The notes below the pieces were generated by a model. It did no database searches. It was not told where the DNA came from and saw only the letters and a list, made by a program, of their open reading frames with translations. A stretch of 54,419 bases of DNA, taken from a virus. The stretch lies in the IMG/VR virus record IMGVR_UViG_3300025508_000024, positions 1 to 54,419 of that record. One strand, 5' to 3'. Positions within the stretch are counted from its first letter, which is position 1, and each line of letters begins with the position of its first letter. The position numbers and the translations under genes were made by a program. Below are positions 1 through 54,419 of the stretch, in pieces.

Positions 1-665
1 AATGTGCGCTTGTAACGATCTACTAGTTCACCAGTCTCTGTGTCATACGCATACATAACTTCGTGAGATACCTTGTAGCCATTAAGCAAACCTTCTTGAG
101 TAATCTTCATCTGATACATAGTAGCTCTACGCTCAGCAACTTCTTCACTCAAGCCGTGTTCTTCTATTAACTCTTCTTTCAGTTTAGGATGTACATACTG
201 TAAGTTAACAAAGTTAAAAAACTTCTCAGTGAACTTCTCACCTTTCTCACAGTTACAGTTGTTCATCTTCTGACGAAGAATAGGGTTACGTAAGAATCTA
301 ATCCACATTTTTACAAGTGGTTCAAAATCTACACCCTTGTCAAGTGATTCAAAGATACGGTCAACCAAAGCTTGTGGCATAGGTATACTAGATACTACAC
401 CTTCGTGCTTCAAAAAGAACTCGCCTGTACCTTCGTTGACATAAATCCACGGGCACGCAGTTTCTACAGTTGTTTTGTAGTCTTGGACAGTAAGCTTAGC
501 AAACTCTTCCATGAGTGCATTGTACTCGTCCATAGTTGTAACAGACTGTTGTCTGTCAGATAACTCCATCATTTTTCTATAAGTGTCCTCGGAGTAGTTG
601 ACACTAAACGGCTTGTCGCCGTACGAACCAGATATTTGGTTCTCAATAACATTAATTGTAATCAT
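1..665 (-). CDS. rIIB: rIIB-like protein (3' end beyond window)
   Basis: The ATG at 665 opens a frame of 221 codons that is still open at base 1, so the C-terminus is missing. The segment around residues 100-130 (LVDRIFESLDKGVDFEPL, then a WIRFLRNP stretch) closely resembles the conserved middle of T4 rIIB (LVDRIL.SMEKG..FE), as I recall that sequence. Near the window edge the ITQEGLLNGYKV stretch matches the rIIB ITEDG..AYKV block. It lies directly downstream of an rIIA-like gene on the same strand, the usual rIIA-rIIB order. In T4 the pair affects lysis timing and exclusion by resident prophages; the molecular role is unsettled, and function here is inferred from family and neighbour only. 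Confidence 0.72.
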   Translation of the reverse strand, partial: MITINVIENQISGSYGDKPFSVNYSEDTYRKMMELSDRQQSVTTMDEYNALMEEFAKLTVQDYKTTVETACPWIYVNEGTGEFFLKHEGVVSSIPMPQALVDRIFESLDKGVDFEPLVKMWIRFLRNPILRQKMNNCNCEKGEKFTEKFFNFVNLQYVHPKLKEELIEEHGLSEEVAERRATMYQMKITQEGLLNGYKVSHEVMYAYDTETGELVDRYKRT

Positions 666-756: not shown

Positions 757-3498
757 TTACCAGTCTAGCCTGCCTTTAGCGTCCAGGTAAACCTTGATTT
801 CTTTAATAAGATCCTGATCTAAATCATGATCATTATTAGGACAGTATGATACTTCACTAATACAATCCAATAGTGTATGCACACCCTCAGACCACTCTTG
901 AAGCTCATTAAACTTATCCATCAACTCTTGATCTTGACCAATAGCTTCTGGTACATCTAGCACAAAGAGTTCACGACTCTTCTGCTGTATAGCAGCGGCG
1001 TCATCGTTGTCTTTGCAGAAGTTATGCATTTCCACAATCTTCTCGACCATAGGAAATATATCAGTATCTTTCATCCACTGACTTACTCTTACATCCACAT
1101 CAGATGCATTGTATACATCCTGATACTTTTCAAACAAGTCTGGATTAATGTCCTTAAGACAATATAAATATGTCTTATCTGTGATACTCTTCATCTTGTC
1201 TGCAGTGTACCACTTAATTGCGTATTCATCCATAGTATATCCTCCATTAGGTGTTAATTGTAAAAAGAATTCATCAATGTGTTTAACATTAGGATTCATG
1301 CTAATGTGTTTAACATTGCTCTGTGAGACTCTGATAACCTGTGGTGTATCCCAATCAAAATTAGTATTGTGATATACCGTACCGTCATCACTGTTGACTG
1401 TAGTAGTTGGTTTTGTAAACTCACCAGTACCAAGTCTAACAGCTGGAGTATCAAAGAAAAACAGTCTATCGTCTTGACCTTCAGTTCTCCATCCAGGCAT
1501 ATCTTTGTATACTTGACGAATGTTAGGAGCAAAAGGATGTATCATACCACAAGCTACCATCAGTTTATCATCATCAGCTGCAGTACCGTAATAGGTAGTA
1601 CGCTGAGTCTTCATAAGATCTTTTACCTTTGGTTCAATCTTGTCTCTGATGTAGCGGTTGTCACTACCAGAACTATGCCAATGCTTTTCGTTGTATCTAA
1701 AAGTGTATGCAACCATACGCTCTTCTATCTTACGACGTTCAGCTGGTGTAATGTTCTCGAACTGTGCAACCTCCTTTGCTTTAGCAATCTCATCTTTGTA
1801 TTCTTCTAACCACTCTTCATTTACCTCTATGTCGTCATAGTTACGACTGTGAGTAGACTCAGTAATTAACTCAAGAACTCTAGCACGTTTAGCAAGTGCT
1901 TTCTTGCTTGCTTTAACAGACTCAGTACTAACAACAGTACTAGGCTCCCAGTTCTCTACAGGCTTAATACAAATAACAGGACCATCACACTCGTGTATAA
2001 GATACATATCTTTGTACTTGCTATGATTCTCTTCACCCATGATAAAGATGTTATTCTCTCTCAATTGGCTGTAGTTTTCAATAGCATTTCTCTCAATAGT
2101 ATCTTCACCAGTACCATAATCTCTGCTCTTAGTTACAACCTCAACCTTCATACCTCTGAATAAAGCTTTTACAGATTCATTCTTAAGTCTTGGGTCAGGC
2201 CCAAACTTAGGCTTGAGTTGTTCCTGGTCAATAATGTTAGACAATCTACCAAGCACACTACCGCTGTCAGCTTTAGTTAAGACTTTCTTACAAGCTATCA
2301 ACCAAGACACAAAGTCTGTTTGCTTAAGCTCTTCTTGTACAATCTCACTAGCCTCATCAGCAGCTGCTTCAATTACAGACTTGATGTATGCTTTAGTGTT
2401 CTCATTCCATATTACCTTCTCACGTGACGGCGTAACATCTACACCATCTTGCAATACAATCTCTTCACCAGTATCTGGGTCATTGATTACTTGTCTTGCA
2501 GGACATTTGAAAGCAATTGGTCCCCACATCTGCTGCATTTCCAACTCACGGAAATCAACAAAGCCATAGTTAACACCGGTTGGTGCGCCTACATCTTTAG
2601 TTAATACAATGTGCGGTTTACTAAACAAATATGTATCAGAGATAATCAAGTTATCAGAGTTGTGCATAACTCTTGGGTGAATGTTTTCTTCCCTTTCATA
2701 GCCATCTTCTGCAATACGCTTAAATTTAATGTTAGGCATATACATCAACTGCTCTTCTACCGCATCACGGTAATCTCGTCTGTTGTGCTTTTTGACCCCA
2801 AACGATATTATGGTTTGATTCTTTGCTTTGGCATCTTCATAGTATACCTTAGTTCCATCACTAAGTGTAATGTAAGGATTAGGCTGCCCTAGTCCTGGAT
2901 TAAACGCAGGTATAATAAAGTCTGTCTTGTAATTGTAACAGTTCATTTTGAACCTCCTACCATTATGTACAGTCTCTATAGTATAGAAATCCACACCAGT
3001 TGACAATGCAACCTTGGCACCAAGACCAAACGCACCGAAGTTCTCAGCTGTATTACGCTTAGTTGAATAACCAAGCTCAAGCACACCTTCCAAACGACGT
3101 TCACCAATACCAACACCGTGGTCTTTTATCGTAACTACATCGCAGTATCCTGTTCCTTCATTCTCTTTGTATGTAATTAGTACGTCGTTGTTTTCTGTAT
3201 CTAAATGATCCAGATTGTAATAGTTAATATCAAAGTTACTATCATTATATTGCTCGCCGTGGCGCTCAATGTAGTAATCTTCTGCTTTAGCTTTACCAGT
3301 TAGTATCTCTATAGCCATCTCCTTCTCACGTTGCGCATCGGCACCATTGGTAGCCAACTCACGCACTGTAGACGGGATAGGTGTAGAGTACTGTGTAGAC
3401 TGCAAGATGTCAAATACCATCTTTTCAGCGCCCTTGTTAATCTTCTTAGCAAGGCCTTCAGATCCTTTGATCTGCTTATCAATCGTTTTTATACTCAT
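757..3498 (-). CDS. rIIA: rIIA-like GHKL ATPase
   Basis: A 913-residue protein with an N-terminal GHKL (Hsp90/gyrase/histidine-kinase type) ATP-binding fold. The N-box has E47, N51 and D54 in RELATNGAD, the G1 box is DHGVGIG at 126-132, and the G2 glycine loop is GAFGLGAK at 155-162. The long C-terminal part has no motif I recognise. GHKL domain plus the adjacent rIIB-like gene identifies it as an rIIA-like protein, somewhat longer than T4 rIIA. In T4, rIIA is membrane-associated and acts with rIIB in lysis control and exclusion resistance. The start at 3498 overlaps the upstream gene by 20 bases, so the two are probably translationally coupled. Confidence 0.8.
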   Translation of the reverse strand: MSIKTIDKQIKGSEGLAKKINKGAEKMVFDILQSTQYSTPIPSTVRELATNGADAQREKEMAIEILTGKAKAEDYYIERHGEQYNDSNFDINYYNLDHLDTENNDVLITYKENEGTGYCDVVTIKDHGVGIGERRLEGVLELGYSTKRNTAENFGAFGLGAKVALSTGVDFYTIETVHNGRRFKMNCYNYKTDFIIPAFNPGLGQPNPYITLSDGTKVYYEDAKAKNQTIISFGVKKHNRRDYRDAVEEQLMYMPNIKFKRIAEDGYEREENIHPRVMHNSDNLIISDTYLFSKPHIVLTKDVGAPTGVNYGFVDFRELEMQQMWGPIAFKCPARQVINDPDTGEEIVLQDGVDVTPSREKVIWNENTKAYIKSVIEAAADEASEIVQEELKQTDFVSWLIACKKVLTKADSGSVLGRLSNIIDQEQLKPKFGPDPRLKNESVKALFRGMKVEVVTKSRDYGTGEDTIERNAIENYSQLRENNIFIMGEENHSKYKDMYLIHECDGPVICIKPVENWEPSTVVSTESVKASKKALAKRARVLELITESTHSRNYDDIEVNEEWLEEYKDEIAKAKEVAQFENITPAERRKIEERMVAYTFRYNEKHWHSSGSDNRYIRDKIEPKVKDLMKTQRTTYYGTAADDDKLMVACGMIHPFAPNIRQVYKDMPGWRTEGQDDRLFFFDTPAVRLGTGEFTKPTTTVNSDDGTVYHNTNFDWDTPQVIRVSQSNVKHISMNPNVKHIDEFFLQLTPNGGYTMDEYAIKWYTADKMKSITDKTYLYCLKDINPDLFEKYQDVYNASDVDVRVSQWMKDTDIFPMVEKIVEMHNFCKDNDDAAAIQQKSRELFVLDVPEAIGQDQELMDKFNELQEWSEGVHTLLDCISEVSYCPNNDHDLDQDLIKEIKVYLDAKGRLDW

Positions 3499-6499: not shown

Positions 6500-7201
6500 T
6501 TAATCAATAAATATTTCTGACCAATTTAGAGGCATGGTCTTACCTTTTAGGTGGTGACAACGTGAACCAGCTGTTACATCATCCAAAGAGTTGAAAGAAA
6601 CCATAGTTTCATCCTCTTCTCTGTAAATATAACCAACAGCATCAGCGTTAGCACATGTAATCTGCTTGATCTTACCAGTCAAGTCAAGGTCCTTTACAGC
6701 AACCTCTTTGCCTTTCTTCTCAAGCATCTTGTCCTTTAGGTGGCCAACTAAGATAACATGATCCGCTAGTTTATTCAGTCTGTCTATCCATTTCTTGTAG
6801 GCTATACGTAAATATAAATAGCCAGCGCCGTTTGGCAATGATAGGACTGATGCACCAGGGTTCTTCTGTTCAAAGTTCTTACCCATAGGAGTTTGCATGT
6901 ATATAGTTTTAGCTTCAGCTTCACACCATTCCTCCAACTTGGAGATAGTGTCAATAGCCACATACTTGTATGGTCTACCATCTTTTATGATAGCTTTCCC
7001 AACTTCACCAAGTTCTTTTAAGCTGCTAACTTTAATCTTCAAGGCATCAACCATGTCTGAGCCTTCTTCAAGGTCAATGATTAAACAATCCTTTAATTGT
7101 GACAATACTGTAGTCTTACCTATCTTAGGTGGACCATAGATTATCATGTTCTTAGGCGACTTACGGCTCGCCTTGACCACAGTTTTTGGTAACTCCATCA
7201 T
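6500..7201 (-). CDS. Sak4-like RecA-fold ATPase (AAA_24 type)
   Basis: A 233-residue P-loop ATPase. Walker A is GPPKIGKT at 23-30 and the Walker B strand is YKYVAIDT with D84. A later HVILVGHLKDK strand is typical of the phage AAA_24/Sak4 group, a minimal RecA/Rad51-like core. Sak4 proteins promote single-strand annealing and homologous recombination together with the phage SSB, and here a putative SSB lies two genes downstream. The start overlaps the helicase stop by four bases (ATGA). There is no separate N-terminal or C-terminal domain, as expected for the family. Confidence 0.75.
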   Translation of the reverse strand: MMELPKTVVKASRKSPKNMIIYGPPKIGKTTVLSQLKDCLIIDLEEGSDMVDALKIKVSSLKELGEVGKAIIKDGRPYKYVAIDTISKLEEWCEAEAKTIYMQTPMGKNFEQKNPGASVLSLPNGAGYLYLRIAYKKWIDRLNKLADHVILVGHLKDKMLEKKGKEVAVKDLDLTGKIKQITCANADAVGYIYREEDETMVSFNSLDDVTAGSRCHHLKGKTMPLNWSEIFID

Positions 7202-14221: not shown

Positions 14222-14590
14222 TGTGGTTAGCAATGACACACTTTCAGCAGTGTCCTCTGTTAATTATAAAAAAGAGAGTACAGATCCTAGTCTTATTTCT
14301 GTATTTCACCGCTTCACTTGTATCGGGATGGTGGTTATGTGCACTAACCAACTCTCTTTATGTTACTAATAACAGGTCAGCAGCCGTTTTTCTCGATGTT
14401 ACATTCCCCTTTGAGGCACCTCTACTGTTCGTCACTAGTTCTAGAAGGTTATCACTAACCACTAGGCTTATTGTTACACCTGTTATTATATTATGTCAAG
14501 TGTATCCGTAGGACTACCTCTCGTAGGTATATTAAGCAGTAGCCACGACTGGCCTTGCTCCCCCAGGATACATTGCTTGATTATATCTCG
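14222..14590 (-). ncRNA. Large structured RNA A (unidentified class)
   Basis: This stretch has no credible gene but holds nested, mostly perfect helices on the minus strand. P1 pairs 14580-14576 and 14572-14566 with 14507-14496 (5 + 7 bp). P2 is the AGCA..GGCCA / UGGCU..UGCU hairpin (14533-14558). P3 is UACCU/AGGUA. P4 is an 11-bp long-range helix, 14488-14478 with 14377-14367. P5 is GGUUA-GUGA-UAACC (14460-14447, GNRA loop). P6 is a 9-bp long-range helix, 14359-14351 with 14279-14271. A G.U pair in P2 favours the minus strand. It lies between the lipoprotein operon and the replication genes. I could not match it to RNase P, tmRNA or a group I/II intron; large phage RNAs such as GOLLD or ROOL are possible relatives to test. 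Confidence 0.65.
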
Positions 14591-14610
14591 TCCAACCTTT
14601 AGCGTAAAGC

Positions 14611-14799
14611 TTATTCAGTTAGTGAAGGAGCATCCACCGAGATTGTATTATTATACTGAATCCAAATAGAATCAGCTTTGTAATTGTATTCTGACCACAG
14701 TTGGTCAAGTTCATAGTCGAGCTTAGCACGCTCAAGACTACGTGTTGTACCACAGCTACCTAGAGCTATGATACAAATAAGTATAATTAGATATTTCAT
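14611..14799 (-). CDS. Small lipoprotein, 62 aa
   Basis: An N-terminal lipoprotein signal: MKYLIILICIIALGSC, with lipobox LGSC placing the lipidated Cys at 16. The mature part of about 47 residues is charged and helical (SLERAKLDYELDQLWSEYNY). Short lipoproteins with a helical periplasmic part next to a two-TM protein recall o-spanins of lysis cassettes; a surface exclusion lipoprotein is an alternative. Its ATG overlaps the stop of another lipoprotein gene (ATGA at 14796-14799), so the two are translationally coupled. Last gene before RNA A. Confidence 0.7.
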   Translation of the reverse strand: MKYLIILICIIALGSCGTTRSLERAKLDYELDQLWSEYNYKADSIWIQYNNTISVDAPSLTE

Positions 14800-14936
14800 C
14801 GTTTCATTTTACAATGTGATTTTACATATCCATTTCCTGTCAATGTTTTCGGTGAGGAACATGATGTTAACCACACCGCAAGGACAAAGAGTACAACTAG
14901 TACTCTTAAGTCCTTGAGGGTATAATTACTATTCAT
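14796..14936 (-). CDS. Tiny lipoprotein, 46 aa
   Basis: The start at 14936 overlaps the two-TM gene by 8 bases, and the stop overlaps the next start as ATGA. The protein has a short polar N-terminus with K8 and R11, a hydrophobic helix (VLVVLFVLAVWLTSC) and an LTSC lipobox with Cys26. The mature peptide is only about 21 residues, containing PKTLTGNGYVKSHCKMKR with a second Cys. Perfect coupling on both sides supports a real gene. It could be an accessory spanin-like or exclusion lipoprotein; no homologue recognised. Confidence 0.7.
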   Translation of the reverse strand: MNSNYTLKDLRVLVVLFVLAVWLTSCSSPKTLTGNGYVKSHCKMKR

Positions 14937-15171
14937 TGTCTAAATAGTGTTTGTAACTCCAGTTGTCCATCTTTGTCTGATACATCTCAGATCTTTTGAT
15001 GAACGCTGCAGTTAGCATTATTGTAACAGCTGTTGCGCAGCCGTACAAAATTGAAGTATTAACAATAGCGAATATTGCAAGTATTATAGATACAATACCT
15101 GTAAGAAACGCTAACAATTGATAGCAGAACTTTAGTCTGCCGTAAGTATAATAAGACATAATATATAACAT
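14929..15171 (-). CDS. Two-TM membrane protein, holin-like
   Basis: About 76-80 residues with two hydrophobic segments (about 16-38, LLAFLTGIVSIILAIFAIV, and 41-58, ILYGCATAVTIMLTAAF) and a charged C-terminus (KRSEMYQTKMDNW). Two TM helices plus a charged tail is a class II holin-like layout. The first gene of a three-gene coupled operon with two lipoproteins. A hammerhead ribozyme lies just upstream: cleavage would leave only 11 bases before the ATG at 15171, or 23 before the in-frame ATG at 15159. Holin function is inference; a second holin-like gene (45886-46302) exists in the late module. Confidence 0.65.
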   Translation of the reverse strand: MLYIMSYYTYGRLKFCYQLLAFLTGIVSIILAIFAIVNTSILYGCATAVTIMLTAAFIKRSEMYQTKMDNWSYKHYLDNE

Positions 15172-15176
15172 TGGTT

Positions 15177-15226
15177 GATATAGACACTTTACAGTGTTTC
15201 GTCTATTGAAGACTCATCAGTATATC
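15177..15226 (-). ncRNA. Hammerhead ribozyme 1 (type I)
   Basis: Every invariant hammerhead position is present on the minus strand. Stem I is GAUAUA (15226-15221) with UAUAUC (15182-15177). The core is CUGAUGA (15220-15214). Stem II is GUCU/AGAC with a 5-base loop (15213-15201). GAAA occupies 15200-15197, and its last A pairs to begin stem III, ACACU/AGUGU with a GUAA tetraloop. The cleavage triplet is GUC with C17 at 15183, so scission falls between 15183 and 15182. Stems II and III are capped and stem I is open, which makes it type I. It lies 6-11 bases before the holin-like start codon, so cleavage would set the 5' end of that mRNA. Confidence 0.9.
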
Positions 15227-15510
15227 TTTGTTAAAAACAAGCCCAGACTCTGCGTTGACATTTAGTCATCGGTATCCTTCCTTCCCTTCCGTCTTACGAG
15301 TGAGGCTATTTTGTACGGAGCAACAGGATTGAATCTACCTTGTAGTTCAACTGCCTCTGTCGGCACAGGTGATCAAACCTGCCTGTCATAAAGAGATCGA
15401 CCACTCTATTATGTTAAGCTCCTGTAATCTTAAATATCTTTAAAAAAGCCTTTTGTCTTCTTGCTTAGGAATACGTCGAATATCACGACCTTTCTATATA
15501 TTTTGATAAT
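15183..15510 (-). ncRNA. Structured RNA B, excised by two hammerheads
   Basis: The 328 bases between the two predicted cleavage sites. The central folded domain (15422-15317) closes with GGAGC-UU-AAC / GUU-GCUCC. It contains a CAUAA-U-AGAG / CUCU-UUAUG hairpin, a CAGGU/ACCUG hairpin and a long UUGAA-CUAC-AAG-GUAG-A-UUCAA hairpin, so it is a multi-branched junction. Downstream are UGAC/GUCA and a longer-range AGCC..CUC / GAG..GGCU helix. The region has no good ORF. After processing it would carry a 5'-OH and a 2',3'-cyclic phosphate, and could be ligated or circularised. The function is unknown, and its identity as one released species is inference. Confidence 0.6.
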
Positions 15511-15551
15511 GACACATAGTGTTTCGCTTAATAAAAGCTCATCAGATTATC
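15505..15551 (-). ncRNA. Hammerhead ribozyme 2 (type I)
   Basis: A second complete hammerhead on the same strand. Stem I is GAUAAU (15551-15546) with AUUAUC (15510-15505). The core is CUGAUGA (15545-15539). Stem II is GCUU/AAGC with a 5-base loop. GAAA is at 15525-15522, leading into stem III ACAC/GUGU with a UAU loop. The cleavage triplet is GUC with C17 at 15511. Compared with hammerhead 1, stems I and II differ in sequence but keep pairing (AUA/UAU vs AAU/AUU; UCU/AGA vs CUU/AAG). This covariation shows that the fold, not the sequence, is conserved. It lies downstream of the 99-residue gene and its hairpin. Confidence 0.9.
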
Positions 15552-15552
15552 T

Positions 15553-15615
15553 TTAGTATGGATAACTATGGAATCTAATTCCCATTATCCAGTCTAGCCA
15601 TTCGCCTTCGTCCAT
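15553..15615 (-). CDS. Possible 20-aa microprotein upstream of hammerhead 2
   Basis: An ATG at 15615 opens MDEGEWLDWIMGIRFHSYPY and stops one base before stem I of hammerhead 2. The composition (acidic start, two Trp, aromatic end) is not obviously random, but a frame this short has little statistical weight. The same bases form a hairpin (GGAUAA..UUAUCC at about 15560-15590), so they may be RNA structure instead. Listed only as a candidate. Confidence 0.2.
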   Translation of the reverse strand: MDEGEWLDWIMGIRFHSYPY

Positions 15616-15718
15616 AATGATATATAATGTAATGGTTAATAATGACACTAAATGTGAAAGACCCACAAAAGTGGTGAATGCAGTCTAGTTGACACACTCA
15701 CACACTAATGTTGTGTAG

Positions 15719-15752
15719 ATAGATAAAGAGTATTACAAAGTAATACCCTCTA
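15719..15752 (-). terminator. Terminator at the end of the 99-aa gene
   Basis: On the minus strand GTATTAC-TTT-GTAATAC forms a 7-bp stem spanning the stop codon of the small gene, extended by weaker AGAG/CTCT pairing. It is followed by TCTTTATCTATC. This could terminate or attenuate transcription before the hammerhead region; read-through would be needed for the ribozymes unless they have their own promoter, which I did not find. Confidence 0.5.
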
Positions 15753-16060: not shown

Positions 16061-16118
16061 TGTTAATACTCTACTTAAGGTGGGGTGTGTTTCATAATAC
16101 CCCTACGCTCTCAAAGAT

Positions 16119-16149
16119 TTTGGTAGTTAAAAATTTTTTAGTAGTTTTG
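16119..16149 (+). promoter_or_regulatory. Bacteroidota promoter P1 for structured RNA C
   Basis: TTTG (16119-16122), a 19-base spacer and TAGTTTTG (16142-16149) give an exact match to TTTG-N19-TAnnTTTG. Initiation would be near 16156. The first 280 transcribed bases are non-coding but structured (RNA C), and the GroES-like gene follows. This is the best promoter match I found in the window. Confidence 0.8.
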
Positions 16150-16155
16150 CACTCA

Positions 16156-16440
16156 GAAGCACACAATACGTGTATCACCCCAGAGGGCCGAGAGGTAGTT
16201 ATGGGGTCAGACGTTGGATTGTAGACCTTAAATAAAGGTTAGAGTTTTCTCCAATAGCTTCTAAAAAGGCGGATATAGCCAACGGTTAGGGCACATTACA
16301 CAGAGGTAGGTGTGATGAATTAACATCAGTTTTAGTGTCCTTAGGTAGTCCAAAAGACAGCACTGCCAGCGGTAAAATTCCAACTGAAATAGTCAAACGC
16401 CTAGGGGTGTGGTGTATCTATTAGTGAAGTTCTTCACAAA
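16156..16440 (+). ncRNA. Structured RNA C / late-operon leader
   Basis: Non-coding bases between promoters P1 and P2. Plus-strand helices include ACCCCA/UGGGGU (16177-16182 with 16202-16207), UUGGA/UCCAA (16214-16218 with 16250-16254) enclosing ACCUU/AAGGU, and GCC/GGC (16278-16292). CAUUACAC/GUGUGAUG (16294-16301 with 16310-16317) contains a U.G pair that would be a mismatch on the other strand, favouring plus. GUGAA/UUCAC (16424-16437) closes the region, and CACCCC (near 16176) can alternatively pair with GGGGUG in the 3' part. It may be a free small RNA or a 5' leader controlling the late operon. No known class recognised, and no intrinsic terminator seen at its end. Confidence 0.5.
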
Positions 16441-16443
16441 ACA

Positions 16444-16476
16444 TTTGGATTTATAAAGTATTTTGTTATACCTTTG
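16444..16476 (+). promoter_or_regulatory. Bacteroidota promoter P2 for the late operon
   Basis: TTTG (16444-16447), a 21-base spacer and TACCTTTG (16469-16476) fit the Bacteroidota vegetative promoter. Initiation near 16483 would give a leader of about 19 bases before the GroES-like ATG. P1 lies 325 bases upstream, so the late genes may be served by two tandem promoters, one reading through RNA C. Confidence 0.75.
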
Positions 16477-16501
16477 CAGTATTAACCAAATTATAGAAAT
16501 A

Positions 16502-50933: not shown

Positions 50934-53900
50934 TGGCTAAGTATATAAAAGGATTAAATAAAGACACAGCTCCAGTAGATCAGCCAGAAGGATCATACAG
51001 ATATGCTAAGAATATGCTATCTAATGAAACTGCTGGTGCATTATCTAATGAGCCTGGTAACATAAGTGTTAACTCAGCTATAGCAAATGGACATAAAGTT
51101 ATAGGTAGTATTGAAGTTACAGATGATACTGTAGTTCTATTTACTACAGATAATAGTGATGTTCATCACATATATATCTATGCTGCTAGTACAGATTCTG
51201 TAAATCTTGTATTAAGAACTGAGCCTGTAATTAACCCTGCTCACCCAATAAATGCTGGGGGTAGTGATGCAGACTTTGATTTAAAATTTAGTTGGGATTA
51301 CCCTATAGAAGGAACATATAAGTTTGATCCAGATAACAATCTTATAGTATACTGGACAGATAATAATAATCCTCCTAGATCACTAAATATTACAAGACAA
51401 ATAAACGAAAGCACTACCGCTAGAATATATGGTGTAAATCCTTTTACATCTCCTAACAAAAATTACATAGACAGACTTAACTTATTTCCACACGCAGGTC
51501 CAGTTCCTAGAATAGCATTTGATAGAATTGCAAACGGAGGCGCACTAAAGTCAGGAGTATACTATTTGTTTTTAGCCTATGTAGATCAAAACTTTACACA
51601 AACTAACTATGTATCTTACTCTCTAGGTGTTCCTATTGTAGAAGACGATGAGAGTGTAGCCCCAATAGAAAGATATGATGGGTGTGAGCCAGATACACAG
51701 ACTGGTAAATCTATTGTGTGGGAAGCTAGTAACCTTAATACAGACTATGAATTTTTAAGACCTATTGTAGTTTATAGAAGTAAAGATGCAGAATTTGCAT
51801 TTAGACTAAATGATATAGATATAAGTTCTAATTCTACTACTGTAATATTTTCAGGGCTAGAAGGTTACGGGTCTTCTTCAGTAGAAGAAGCTATTATAGA
51901 TACAGTAGCCTACGATACAGCAAAAACACTAACACAGCTAGATAGTATATTATACCTAGGTAATTTGTCTGGAACAAAAGATGTGGGATACCAACCGTAT
52001 GCAAACTTTATAAAAGTATCATCAGTAGTATCTCCACCTTTAAATCCGTTTGATCCTTATGAATTAACCATAGACAACCTAGACTATGGGTATTTAAATA
52101 CAAAACCTTACACACAGGTATTATCAGGTATAACAAAGCAGGGAGGATTTAGAGATATAGACAGAATATCTTCTACTAGAAACGCCCCTGCAAGTAATCC
52201 TGGACAAGTACACAATAGAAAAGGGTACACAAGAGATGAGGTATATGCTTTTTACATAGCGTTTATACTTAATGATGGTAGCATGTCTTATGCATACCAC
52301 ATACCTGGTAGAACTCCAATTACAGTTGCAGATGGGTCTCAAATTAGAAAGGTAGGAACTAATAATCCTATAACAGGATCTATTTCTGAAGACGACGTTC
52401 TTGAAGATCAGGACCTTATAGACCTAACACAGAGTCAAGGTCAAATGTTTCACTTCTATGACTTTTCTATATTTGGTGCTGGAGTAGCTCGTAATATGAA
52501 TTTTTGGCAAAACAAAAACGAGTTCTACCCAAACACAGATGACTACTTAATGATTAATGCTAATGATCCTGCAAATACAGTAGAGGATTTAAGAGGTAGC
52601 AATGTTAGGCATCATCATATGCCATGTAATACTAATAGTAATAGAAGAACTATAGAAGGAAGTGATAGTACAATTACTCCAGCAACAGATACAACTACCT
52701 CAGTATACTATTTTTATTTTGACGGGTTTAGTACTAATCATGATGACGATGCTCAACAAGAGCTAGATAGTATACTTATAGATACAAATGATACATCTGC
52801 AAATACTAGTGCTATAGATCAGACTGCGGGTTTTGGCAATGACTGGGAAAATGGTAGTGATCAGCTTCAAGATTCACTTGGTTCTATTAGTAACTGGCAG
52901 TATCAACTTCCTGAAGGCGGAGAACAAGGATGGTTTTTATGGGACACTAATTCTAACAGTGGTGGAACTACTGCAACTATTAGTAGTGTTACCACTGACT
53001 CTAATGGTATTACAGATATAGATATAAATCAGACTGCTAGTGGCGGAGGAATTTTTACCGGAGGCCTTTTTGGTACAATAGACCAAATAAACCAATCACC
53101 TAACAGTGTAGTTGGTTATTTTGTTTGGGAATCAACAGTTGATGCTATAAGCGCAAACGGATCAATTTCAGACAGAGTACGAGCTTTAGGTGTAGAGTTT
53201 GAAGATATAAAAATACCACAGAGTATAGCAGATAAAGTACAAGGATTTAGGATATATTATGCAGAGCGTAAGCATTCTAACAGAAGAATATTAGGTCAGG
53301 ATGTAATAAAAAATACTAGTAATATAAATGATATAGATGTTAGTGCATGTGAAGGTGATCCTGGTAATGGAGGAAGTGAAGATTTTATACTGTCTCCTGG
53401 AGTTCTTTTTAGAGGCTCTATAAACACAGCTACTTTCCACGATTTTTATCTGTTAAATAATAGAAACAGTTTAGTACCTGCTACACATACTAGTGAAGAG
53501 TATAGAGTAAGAATGTTTTCTTTACTAGGACCGGGTAATTCTTATAATGATTTTCAAAGCTATCAAAGTGCTGGAGATGATTGTATAATGCAAGACTCTT
53601 ATGTAACAGCACATCTTGGTAGTCAGTTTATAGCGTACACAACTAACAATACACCTTTTTATCATTTCCCAATAAGAGAAAAATGTAAAACATACTTGAA
53701 TGGTGATTCTATATATGATGGTAGAGGTATTGGATTTGGTAAAAGAATTTTTAATGTTGGAGGAGAAAGCTCTATACTTCTAGCTTATAACCCTGATAGA
53801 ATGCCTGTGCAGAGAGCATTTAGTCATCCTGGAGATGGAACAGCTGCTACGCCGTGGCATCAAGTTCCTTCATCAAATGATCCTTTTTCATACGAAGTTC

Positions 53901-54419
53901 CTTCAACACAGGTAGAGCTTAAACTGCATAATTTACATGCATTTAAAACTGACATGTATTTATCTTATGATACTCAGGAATTAATATGGACAGGGTTTGA
54001 GGTATTAGGAGATGAGTTAGATAACTATACGGTTGAATCTGATAATACATCTACTGTTGGAGCTACACATAGAACTGGTAGTGTATTTGGAGGAGATACT
54101 TTTATATGTAGACACGGGTATCGTATTACACATAGACCTGCATATAATGGTCCTTTTCCTAGAGATCATAAATCTTTATTATATGTAATAGCTGAGTCTA
54201 CAGATAATATAAACTTTAGGCATGAGCTTACCAATGAAAGTTCATACTTTCCAGGATCTCCTGCAAAACGAATGTTAGATTTAAAAGCTGAGATAGATCT
54301 TACTAAGAAAGATAATATGAAATATGATGAATCATTCTCTTTGGGCATTGCAGATATAAAGCCTGCTATACCATACCCATTAAGAGAGTCTGATCCTAGC
54401 ATATTTAAAACAAGAGTAC
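50933..54419 (+). CDS. crAss-like stabilisation/muzzle-type tail protein (3' end beyond window)
   Basis: The ATG at 50933 overlaps the previous stop by one base; the frame stays open to the right edge (about 1162 codons). The N-terminus MAKYIKGLNKDTAPVDQPEG, then YRYAKNMLSNETAGALSNEP matches the conserved start of large structural proteins of crAss-like phages (GLNKD, Y..A.N......GALSNE). The segment GGALKSGVYYLFLAYVDQNF and its continuation recur in that family. It is one of the biggest tail proteins and probably stabilises the tail or surrounds the tail hub. Only part is seen, so domain order at the C-terminus is unknown. Confidence 0.75.
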   Translation, partial: MAKYIKGLNKDTAPVDQPEGSYRYAKNMLSNETAGALSNEPGNISVNSAIANGHKVIGSIEVTDDTVVLFTTDNSDVHHIYIYAASTDSVNLVLRTEPVINPAHPINAGGSDADFDLKFSWDYPIEGTYKFDPDNNLIVYWTDNNNPPRSLNITRQINESTTARIYGVNPFTSPNKNYIDRLNLFPHAGPVPRIAFDRIANGGALKSGVYYLFLAYVDQNFTQTNYVSYSLGVPIVEDDESVAPIERYDGCEPDTQTGKSIVWEASNLNTDYEFLRPIVVYRSKDAEFAFRLNDIDISSNSTTVIFSGLEGYGSSSVEEAIIDTVAYDTAKTLTQLDSILYLGNLSGTKDVGYQPYANFIKVSSVVSPPLNPFDPYELTIDNLDYGYLNTKPYTQVLSGITKQGGFRDIDRISSTRNAPASNPGQVHNRKGYTRDEVYAFYIAFILNDGSMSYAYHIPGRTPITVADGSQIRKVGTNNPITGSISEDDVLEDQDLIDLTQSQGQMFHFYDFSIFGAGVARNMNFWQNKNEFYPNTDDYLMINANDPANTVEDLRGSNVRHHHMPCNTNSNRRTIEGSDSTITPATDTTTSVYYFYFDGFSTNHDDDAQQELDSILIDTNDTSANTSAIDQTAGFGNDWENGSDQLQDSLGSISNWQYQLPEGGEQGWFLWDTNSNSGGTTATISSVTTDSNGITDIDINQTASGGGIFTGGLFGTIDQINQSPNSVVGYFVWESTVDAISANGSISDRVRALGVEFEDIKIPQSIADKVQGFRIYYAERKHSNRRILGQDVIKNTSNINDIDVSACEGDPGNGGSEDFILSPGVLFRGSINTATFHDFYLLNNRNSLVPATHTSEEYRVRMFSLLGPGNSYNDFQSYQSAGDDCIMQDSYVTAHLGSQFIAYTTNNTPFYHFPIREKCKTYLNGDSIYDGRGIGFGKRIFNVGGESSILLAYNPDRMPVQRAFSHPGDGTAATPWHQVPSSNDPFSYEVPSTQVELKLHNLHAFKTDMYLSYDTQELIWTGFEVLGDELDNYTVESDNTSTVGATHRTGSVFGGDTFICRHGYRITHRPAYNGPFPRDHKSLLYVIAESTDNINFRHELTNESSYFPGSPAKRMLDLKAEIDLTKKDNMKYDESFSLGIADIKPAIPYPLRESDPSIFKTRV

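Follow-up and report, generated by a model that had tools for sequence, protein, structure and literature searches.

Two type I hammerhead ribozymes, HH-A and HH-B, lie one behind the other in the leader of the leftward genes of what appears to be a crAss-like phage, and both are likely, judging by their sequences, to be active and to cut the leftward transcript as it is made. The DNA analysed, referred to as the window, comprises positions 1 to 54,419 (54,419 nt) of IMG/VR record IMGVR_UViG_3300025508_000024, in which HH-A occupies 15505..15551 and HH-B 15177..15226, both on the minus strand. This reading draws on the two being the only matches to a hammerhead descriptor, on their E-values under a covariance model, on the conservation of HH-B in orthologues, on the one-strand punctuation seen in other phage loci, and on the cleavage described in 2011 for clustered prophage hammerheads in the available text of PMC3088659.

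The leftward transcript, directed toward the DNA polymerase, helicase and primase genes, would start upstream of 15615 and be cut by HH-A and HH-B during its synthesis. The HH-A cut would part a putative 20-codon frame (MDEGEWLDWIMGIRFHSYPY before its stop, 15553..15615, minus strand, known from translation) from the RNA downstream. The HH-B cut would strip away the whole upstream cassette, leaving the first conserved leftward gene (14929..15159, minus strand) with a 23-nt leader that would begin with a 5' hydroxyl and be free of upstream structure, while the upstream fragments would end in a 2',3'-cyclic phosphate. These are the ends that hammerhead chemistry leaves. The cassette would thereby be uncoupled from the genes behind it, and the 328-nt RNA expected between the two predicted cuts (15183..15510, minus strand), which bears a folded element termed M1, would be a by-product or a second product.

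Structure and conservation of the two hammerheads

HH-A and HH-B both carry CUGANGA and GAAA, the A15.1-U16.1 pair and H17 at the cut, and both have three helices, an open stem I together with stems II and III that are each capped by a loop, an arrangement that makes them type I. In HH-A (GAUAAU-CUGAUGA-GCUU(UUAUU)AAGC-GAAA-CAC(UAU)GUG-UC-AUUAUC), stem I is formed by 15551-15546 and 15510-15505, the core by 15545-15539 and 15525-15522, stem II by 15538-15526 and stem III by 15521-15513; U16.1 is 15512, C17 is 15511, and the predicted cut falls at 15511/15510. In HH-B (GAUAUA-CUGAUGA-GUCU(UCAAU)AGAC-GAAA-CACU(GUAA)AGUG-UC-UAUAUC), the corresponding elements are 15226-15221 and 15182-15177 for stem I, 15220-15214 and 15200-15197 for the core, 15213-15201 for stem II and 15196-15185 for stem III, with U16.1 at 15184, C17 at 15183 and the predicted cut at 15183/15182. 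Both are on the strand that encodes the leftward genes, 328 nt from each other, which supports the leftward transcript as their carrier, as the first-pass annotation had supposed.

Comparison with other phage hammerheads came from a pattern scan of IMG/VR, which returned at least 119 loci with a search pattern drawn from the window's own ribozymes; counts from other phages given here and below are among the matches listed. Among 73 further phage hammerheads whose stem II arm is 13 nt long and whose stem I has at least 6 pairs, 71 have an A directly before stem I and 62 have one directly after it, and 67 have G-C as the outer pair. HH-A and HH-B share the flanking A's and the G-C outer pair with most of this set, and their loops II, UUAUU and UCAAU, fit the U-N-A-N-U loop common in phage hammerheads; loop II and the region beyond stem I are the parts between which a tertiary contact would be expected in a type I hammerhead.

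A descriptor demanding the CUGANGA and GAAA core, the A15.1-U16.1 pair, a non-G at position 17 and three helices matched HH-A and HH-B (scores 16 and 17) and nothing else on either strand of the window, while 200 dinucleotide-shuffled windows, again on both strands, gave 2 matches altogether, each with a score of 11. Because Rfam scores stayed below the gathering thresholds, a separate covariance model was built from 30 hammerheads of other phage contigs, excluding the window's species. These 30 are the short-stem-III members of 47 loci and were picked for pairing, so that the pair counts of the set are not used as evidence. The model gave 69.2 bits (E 3.4e-16) for HH-B and 56.9 bits (E 7.5e-13) for HH-A, with no third match up to E 10 in the 54,419 bases. 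Descriptor and model together confirm the two type I hammerheads and the cut sites that had been read from the sequence at first pass. The compensatory differences between the stems of HH-A and HH-B noted there are likewise supported, and the orthologues of HH-B strengthen the case.

Relatives were collected through TerL (the best 80 of 509 kept) and through two neighbouring genes (17 loci and 10 loci), and are given here by locus number. Over the 80 TerL-relative loci (885,203 bases), many of which are fragments that do not reach the hammerhead locus, the phage model matched the locus in six (L003, L005, L006, L009, L013 and L025), the next matches being L063 (E 0.25) and L078 (E 0.32). On whole records it matched 8 of 12, with misses in L015, L017, L079 and L042, and none of a further eight (L251, L252, L235, L010, L014, L016, L019 and L022); several of the whole records searched are short fragments. 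Among the 17 neighbour-gene loci HH-B is present in 10 and absent from 7; two of the 7, L216 and L217, start inside the gene and are uninformative. The intergenic regions of seven relatives (L010, L014, L015, L016, L017, L019 and L022) hold no hammerhead.

Four HH-B sequences (those of the window, L009, L013 and L210) differ in 11 of 56 columns. No column varies in the core (0/13), stem I (0/12) or loop II (0/5); the variation falls in stem II (4/8), stem III (2/8), loop III (2/4) and the flank (3/6). All four changes in stem II are compensated, as are those of stem III in L009 and L210. The covariation test rests on HH-B, HH-A being without a diverged orthologue among the loci examined. In those loci both ribozymes are carried only by near-identical contigs of the window's kind and by L025. 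Across 15172-15740 L025 shares 99.5% identity with the window, yet its TerL is 87% identical; the contigs of L009, L013 and L210 carry HH-B without HH-A. Since HH-A is confined to the window's species and L025 while HH-B is found more widely, the pair is, by its distribution in these sequences, not an old fixed unit.

The wider scan places the window among many phage loci with hammerheads. At least 90 loci have a descriptor match and at least 23 have two or more, up to seven. Once the window's species (L090) is set aside, all copies lie on one strand in 22 of 22 multi-hammerhead loci. These 22 contain 45 segments between neighbouring hammerheads; 19 of the segments are no longer than 500 nt, and in 18 of these 19 at least half of the length is taken up by the longest frame. 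In phages, hammerheads thus tend to stand between successive genes of a transcript, an arrangement outlined already in 2011 in the available text of PMC3088659.

Several observations weigh against active ribozymes that matter for this transcript. The first-pass annotation had held that the lack of an Rfam hammerhead hit would refute its proposal, and at the gathering score Rfam gives no match in the window, nor in eight relatives; below it, the scores with Hammerhead_3 are 27 bits (E 0.0041) for HH-B and 18 bits (E 1.4) for HH-A, the gathering score being 48.5. While the hammerhead fold of HH-B is its minimum-energy fold (-10.3 kcal/mol, probability 0.41), that of HH-A is marginal (-6.1, probability 0.08), lying just above a competitor at -6.4, and within a 68-nt context HH-A takes another fold. 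In the HH-B of L013, one pair at the inner end of stem III is mismatched. Cassettes without a hammerhead at this site are found in L015, L019, L022, L251 and L252, indicating that cleavage is not strictly needed. A scan of the minus strand near the locus recognised neither a sigma-70 promoter nor an intrinsic terminator. HH-A is the weaker of the pair, and in these predictions folding alone does not set the two apart. The Rfam scores and the marginal fold of HH-A would be accommodated if the two were chance matches or dead relics, but the shuffle control, the model scores and the compensated changes in orthologues make this highly improbable. Both ribozymes are very probably real, HH-B being the stronger.

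Gene setting of the locus

The position of the ribozymes relative to reading frames also argues for cleavage of the leftward transcript. The stop of the 20-codon frame sits 1 nt before stem I of HH-A, and the conserved start of the first gene past HH-B, 15159, lies 23 nt past the HH-B cut, with an additional in-frame ATG at 15171. In L013 and L210 HH-B overlaps the stop of the preceding frame (69 codons and 4 codons, respectively). In L228, L232 and L236 the next start comes about 25 nt past the hammerhead cut, and in L017 the leader joins the same gene directly, with no cassette and no ribozyme. The gene at 14929..15159 has relatives in viral contigs, whose starts were compared, and no match in a PHROG search.

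Out of 157 phage records, the 12 best share 40-42% identity with the window TerL across 94-99% of the protein; most of the 12 are named 'uncultured phage cr...', which we take to be crAss-like phages, and CrAssphage records are included among the 157. PHROG matches identify TerL (6681), the portal (6547) and the major head protein (11589), and place DNA polymerase, primase and helicase families among the leftward genes. The relatedness of TerL, portal and major head protein to those of crAss-like phages is the basis on which the phage is assigned to this group. Phage isolates contain no related DNA at the locus, with just two matches of 36 and 29 nt, and a tRNA search of the window found none.

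Two further features of these genomes were noted. The last 3.5 kb or so of the window (50934-54419) contains only three frames of at least 60 codons, the longest of 78, and related sequence is absent among the loci compared, near-identical contigs being left out of that listing. In the L002 contig (82,755 bases; loci L218 and L220), the 100-codon hammerhead-adjacent gene occurs near both ends, in copies 99% and 96% identical to the window's, possibly through a terminal repeat or a duplication.

The segment between the cuts and other structured RNAs

The 328-nt segment defined by the two cut sites folds, as a whole, no better than its shuffles (z -0.97, 18/100). From the first cut to HH-B the longest frame has 34 codons, starting from GTG, and covers 36% of 284 nt. 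Within the segment, M1 (15313..15429, minus strand) was recognised by its fold z-score and its recurrence in other contigs. It has an outer stem, GGAGC/GCUCC, one hairpin and an arm that splits into three hairpins at a four-way junction, and it lies inside a 137-nt common block (15307-15443). The stretch 15306-15440 has a fold z of -3.04, a stability reached by 1 of 200 shuffles; its complement folds equally well (z -3.10), so that folding does not tell the strand of M1.

M1 in L228 and L232 is 96% identical to that of the window across the 137 nt. L251 and L252 have a shorter form of 80 nt, against 117 nt for that of the window; the short form lacks two inner hairpins, and its arm is still closed. 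By eye, the pairing that closes the arm changes by way of a G-U pair (ACAGA/UCUGU in L251, ACAGG/UCUGU in L252 and ACAGG/CCUGU in the window); the outer pair of the arm is lost in L228 and L232. Fold z-scores are -3.13 in L251, -3.30 in L252, -2.39 in L232 and -1.95 in L228, and an M1 descriptor run over 253 sequences found only these four variants and that of the window. L234 matched the pattern by chance and is not a carrier, and among cellular genomes the same pattern matched five Shewanella contigs, two of which were inspected and neither of which has M1. A protein-coding explanation of M1 was rejected, as no frame spans it and the size difference between the two forms respects the structure.

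A type I hammerhead lies downstream of M1 in L228 and L232, and in the window M1 ends 87 nt ahead of HH-B. The records of L251 (7,801 bases) and L252 (80,339 bases) contain no match to the phage model, indicating that M1 is independent of hammerheads. At L228 7657-7702 (minus strand) and L232 7271-7316 (plus strand) the hammerhead stands, by eye, a few bases past a terminator-like hairpin and T-run, an arrangement in which only read-through RNA would carry the hammerhead.

Two remnants of a reading frame, found by blastn and tblastn, flank M1 in the window: remnant 1 (RRIPKQEDK..., 15438..15497, minus strand) and remnant 2 (IASLIRRKG... in L019; 15232..15309, minus strand). They are contiguous in L019 and L022. 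In L019 the two form a single frame, which makes it probable that a decayed gene accounts for part of the cassette.

The anatomy of the locus allows the release of a defined internal RNA, and the segment holds a conserved folded RNA, which makes such a release possible. That the pair exists in order to release a separate noncoding RNA, one that bears M1 and has a part to play during infection, is rather unlikely. It would explain why the segment lacks a long frame, unlike 18 of the 19 short segments in other phage loci, and why the M1 fold is common to five sequence variants in differing contexts. However, M1 stands without a hammerhead match in the records of L251 and L252 and with only a downstream one in L228 and L232, HH-A, which would make the 5' end, is limited to the window's species and L025 among the loci examined, and part of the segment resembles a decayed frame.

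The two ribozymes might also serve to excise a segment that is then ligated into a circular RNA, or the locus might be a retrozyme-like mobile element. Tandem hammerheads on one strand and cut ends suited to ligation are what such a system would have, but this is barely credible: in a joined molecule GAUAUA would have to pair with AUUAUC, two positions at the cut being mismatched, and the joined sequence favours another fold; HH-A and HH-B are not a repeat; and the identity between L025 and the window runs far past both ribozymes, so that no unit bounded by them was copied there and a DNA unit of this kind is unsupported by L025. In L009, on the other hand, HH-B marks the end of the divergent stretch. 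In the clusters of 2011, circles or spliced products were sought and none detected, according to the available text of PMC3088659.

Further folded elements recur in these leaders and gaps. M2 is found at L009 6318-6415 (minus strand), L232 about 6960-7050 (plus strand), L235 about 500-640 (minus strand) and L236 about 345-465 (plus strand); it directly follows M1 in L232, forms part of the cassette in L009, and shows a C-G to U-A change in one hairpin among its four variants. The L009 copy, directly before HH-B, gives a weak match to the AdoCbl-II riboswitch (17.8 bits, E 0.33, below the gathering score of 36.5), which raises the idea that M1, and likewise M2 in L009, bind ligands and that the ribozymes belong to conditional RNA switches. 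This is very unlikely, as the sub-threshold match may be due to chance, both M1 and M2 are found in places that have no hammerhead (L251, L252 and L235), and M1 in the window is separated from HH-B by the 87 nt given above.

M4, a short folded RNA (14503-14573, minus strand), is identical at 71 of 71 positions in L236, where the context differs; in L019 and L214 its identity is 93-94%, and the differences, by eye, preserve pairs. M1, M2 and M4 look like exchangeable structured RNAs, M1 being apparently one of several such modules in these leaders. M5 is a common noncoding stretch starting TTTTGCGGACAA, found in differing contexts in L236 (from about 530, plus strand) and L251 (from about 3293, minus strand). 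M8 is a candidate folded element (ATCTCG...CGAGAT) just before M4, at about 14576-14640 (minus strand) in the window and about 3309-3325 (minus strand) in L251, and is common by blastn to L214, L216 and others; the 3' end of a 62-codon frame extends into it, and part of it may therefore be coding. At the leader site, L010 (6600-6900, minus strand), L014 (1440-1760, minus strand) and L252 (1057-1260, plus strand) have different structured-looking stretches, that of L014 giving a weak, implausible Rfam match only.

Taken together with cleavage of the leftward transcript, these modules suggest a broader picture, offered tentatively: crAss-like phages of this group may hold a common stock of exchangeable noncoding RNA modules (M1, M2, M4, M5, M8 and others) in early-operon leaders and gaps, with hammerheads that free them or split off the genes behind, and the pair in the window might excise an M1-centred RNA.

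The rightward leader (16160-16400, plus strand; conserved block 16103-16480) holds a separate, widely conserved structured RNA. Across 31 aligned relatives, 21 of 42 predicted pairs are changed on both sides, paired cells amount to 97.8% compared with 85.0% in shuffles, and covariation is 0.426 compared with at most 0.114 in slid controls; the measure of further pair types is not above shuffles. Rfam gives no match on this stretch, which is a candidate new RNA family.

Comparison with known hammerhead systems

The role of prokaryotic and phage hammerheads is an open question according to the available text of a 2017 review (PMC6155905). Among comparable leaders, that of L017 lacks both ribozyme and cassette, those of L210 and L013 have a single ribozyme behind a frame of 4 and 69 codons, respectively, and that of the window has two, placed around a noncoding cassette; this series of zero, one and two ribozymes makes the role of the hammerheads testable at this locus. 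Should the exchangeable RNA modules prove functional, they would constitute a new group of noncoding RNAs in phages. In a literature search that covered few subscription journals, no paper was found on hammerheads in crAss-like phages or on such structured RNAs.

Among Rfam families, Hammerhead_3 (RF00008), Hammerhead_HH9 (RF02275) and RAGATH-1-hammerhead (RF03152) have the same catalytic core and are the best matches, all below their gathering scores, at the window sites and the L009 orthologue; the ribozymes of the window are type I and not type III, since stem I is the open one and the other two stems are closed. Retrozymes and viroid-like circular RNAs carry tandem hammerheads on one strand. 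The window resembles them in this respect, as far as the available text of PMC6155905 describes them, and differs in having no repeat unit, unequal stem I sequences and a poor circle junction.

The closest known counterparts are the prophage hammerhead clusters of Perreault et al. 2011 (PMC3088659). In the available text of that paper these clusters flank genes, cleave in vitro and are proposed to divide long phage RNAs into mRNAs the length of a gene or an operon, so that the first-pass annotation was mistaken in taking paired phage hammerheads to be undescribed. Like those clusters, the window has hammerheads close together on one phage-type transcript beside small genes. Those clusters lie in prophage genomes, whereas the phage of the window is crAss-like and not shown to be a prophage, and their hammerheads have genes between them, whereas the segment in the window contains M1 and no long frame. 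Clusters of hammerheads have been described in phages before; what is new here is the noncoding, M1-bearing cassette between two of them.
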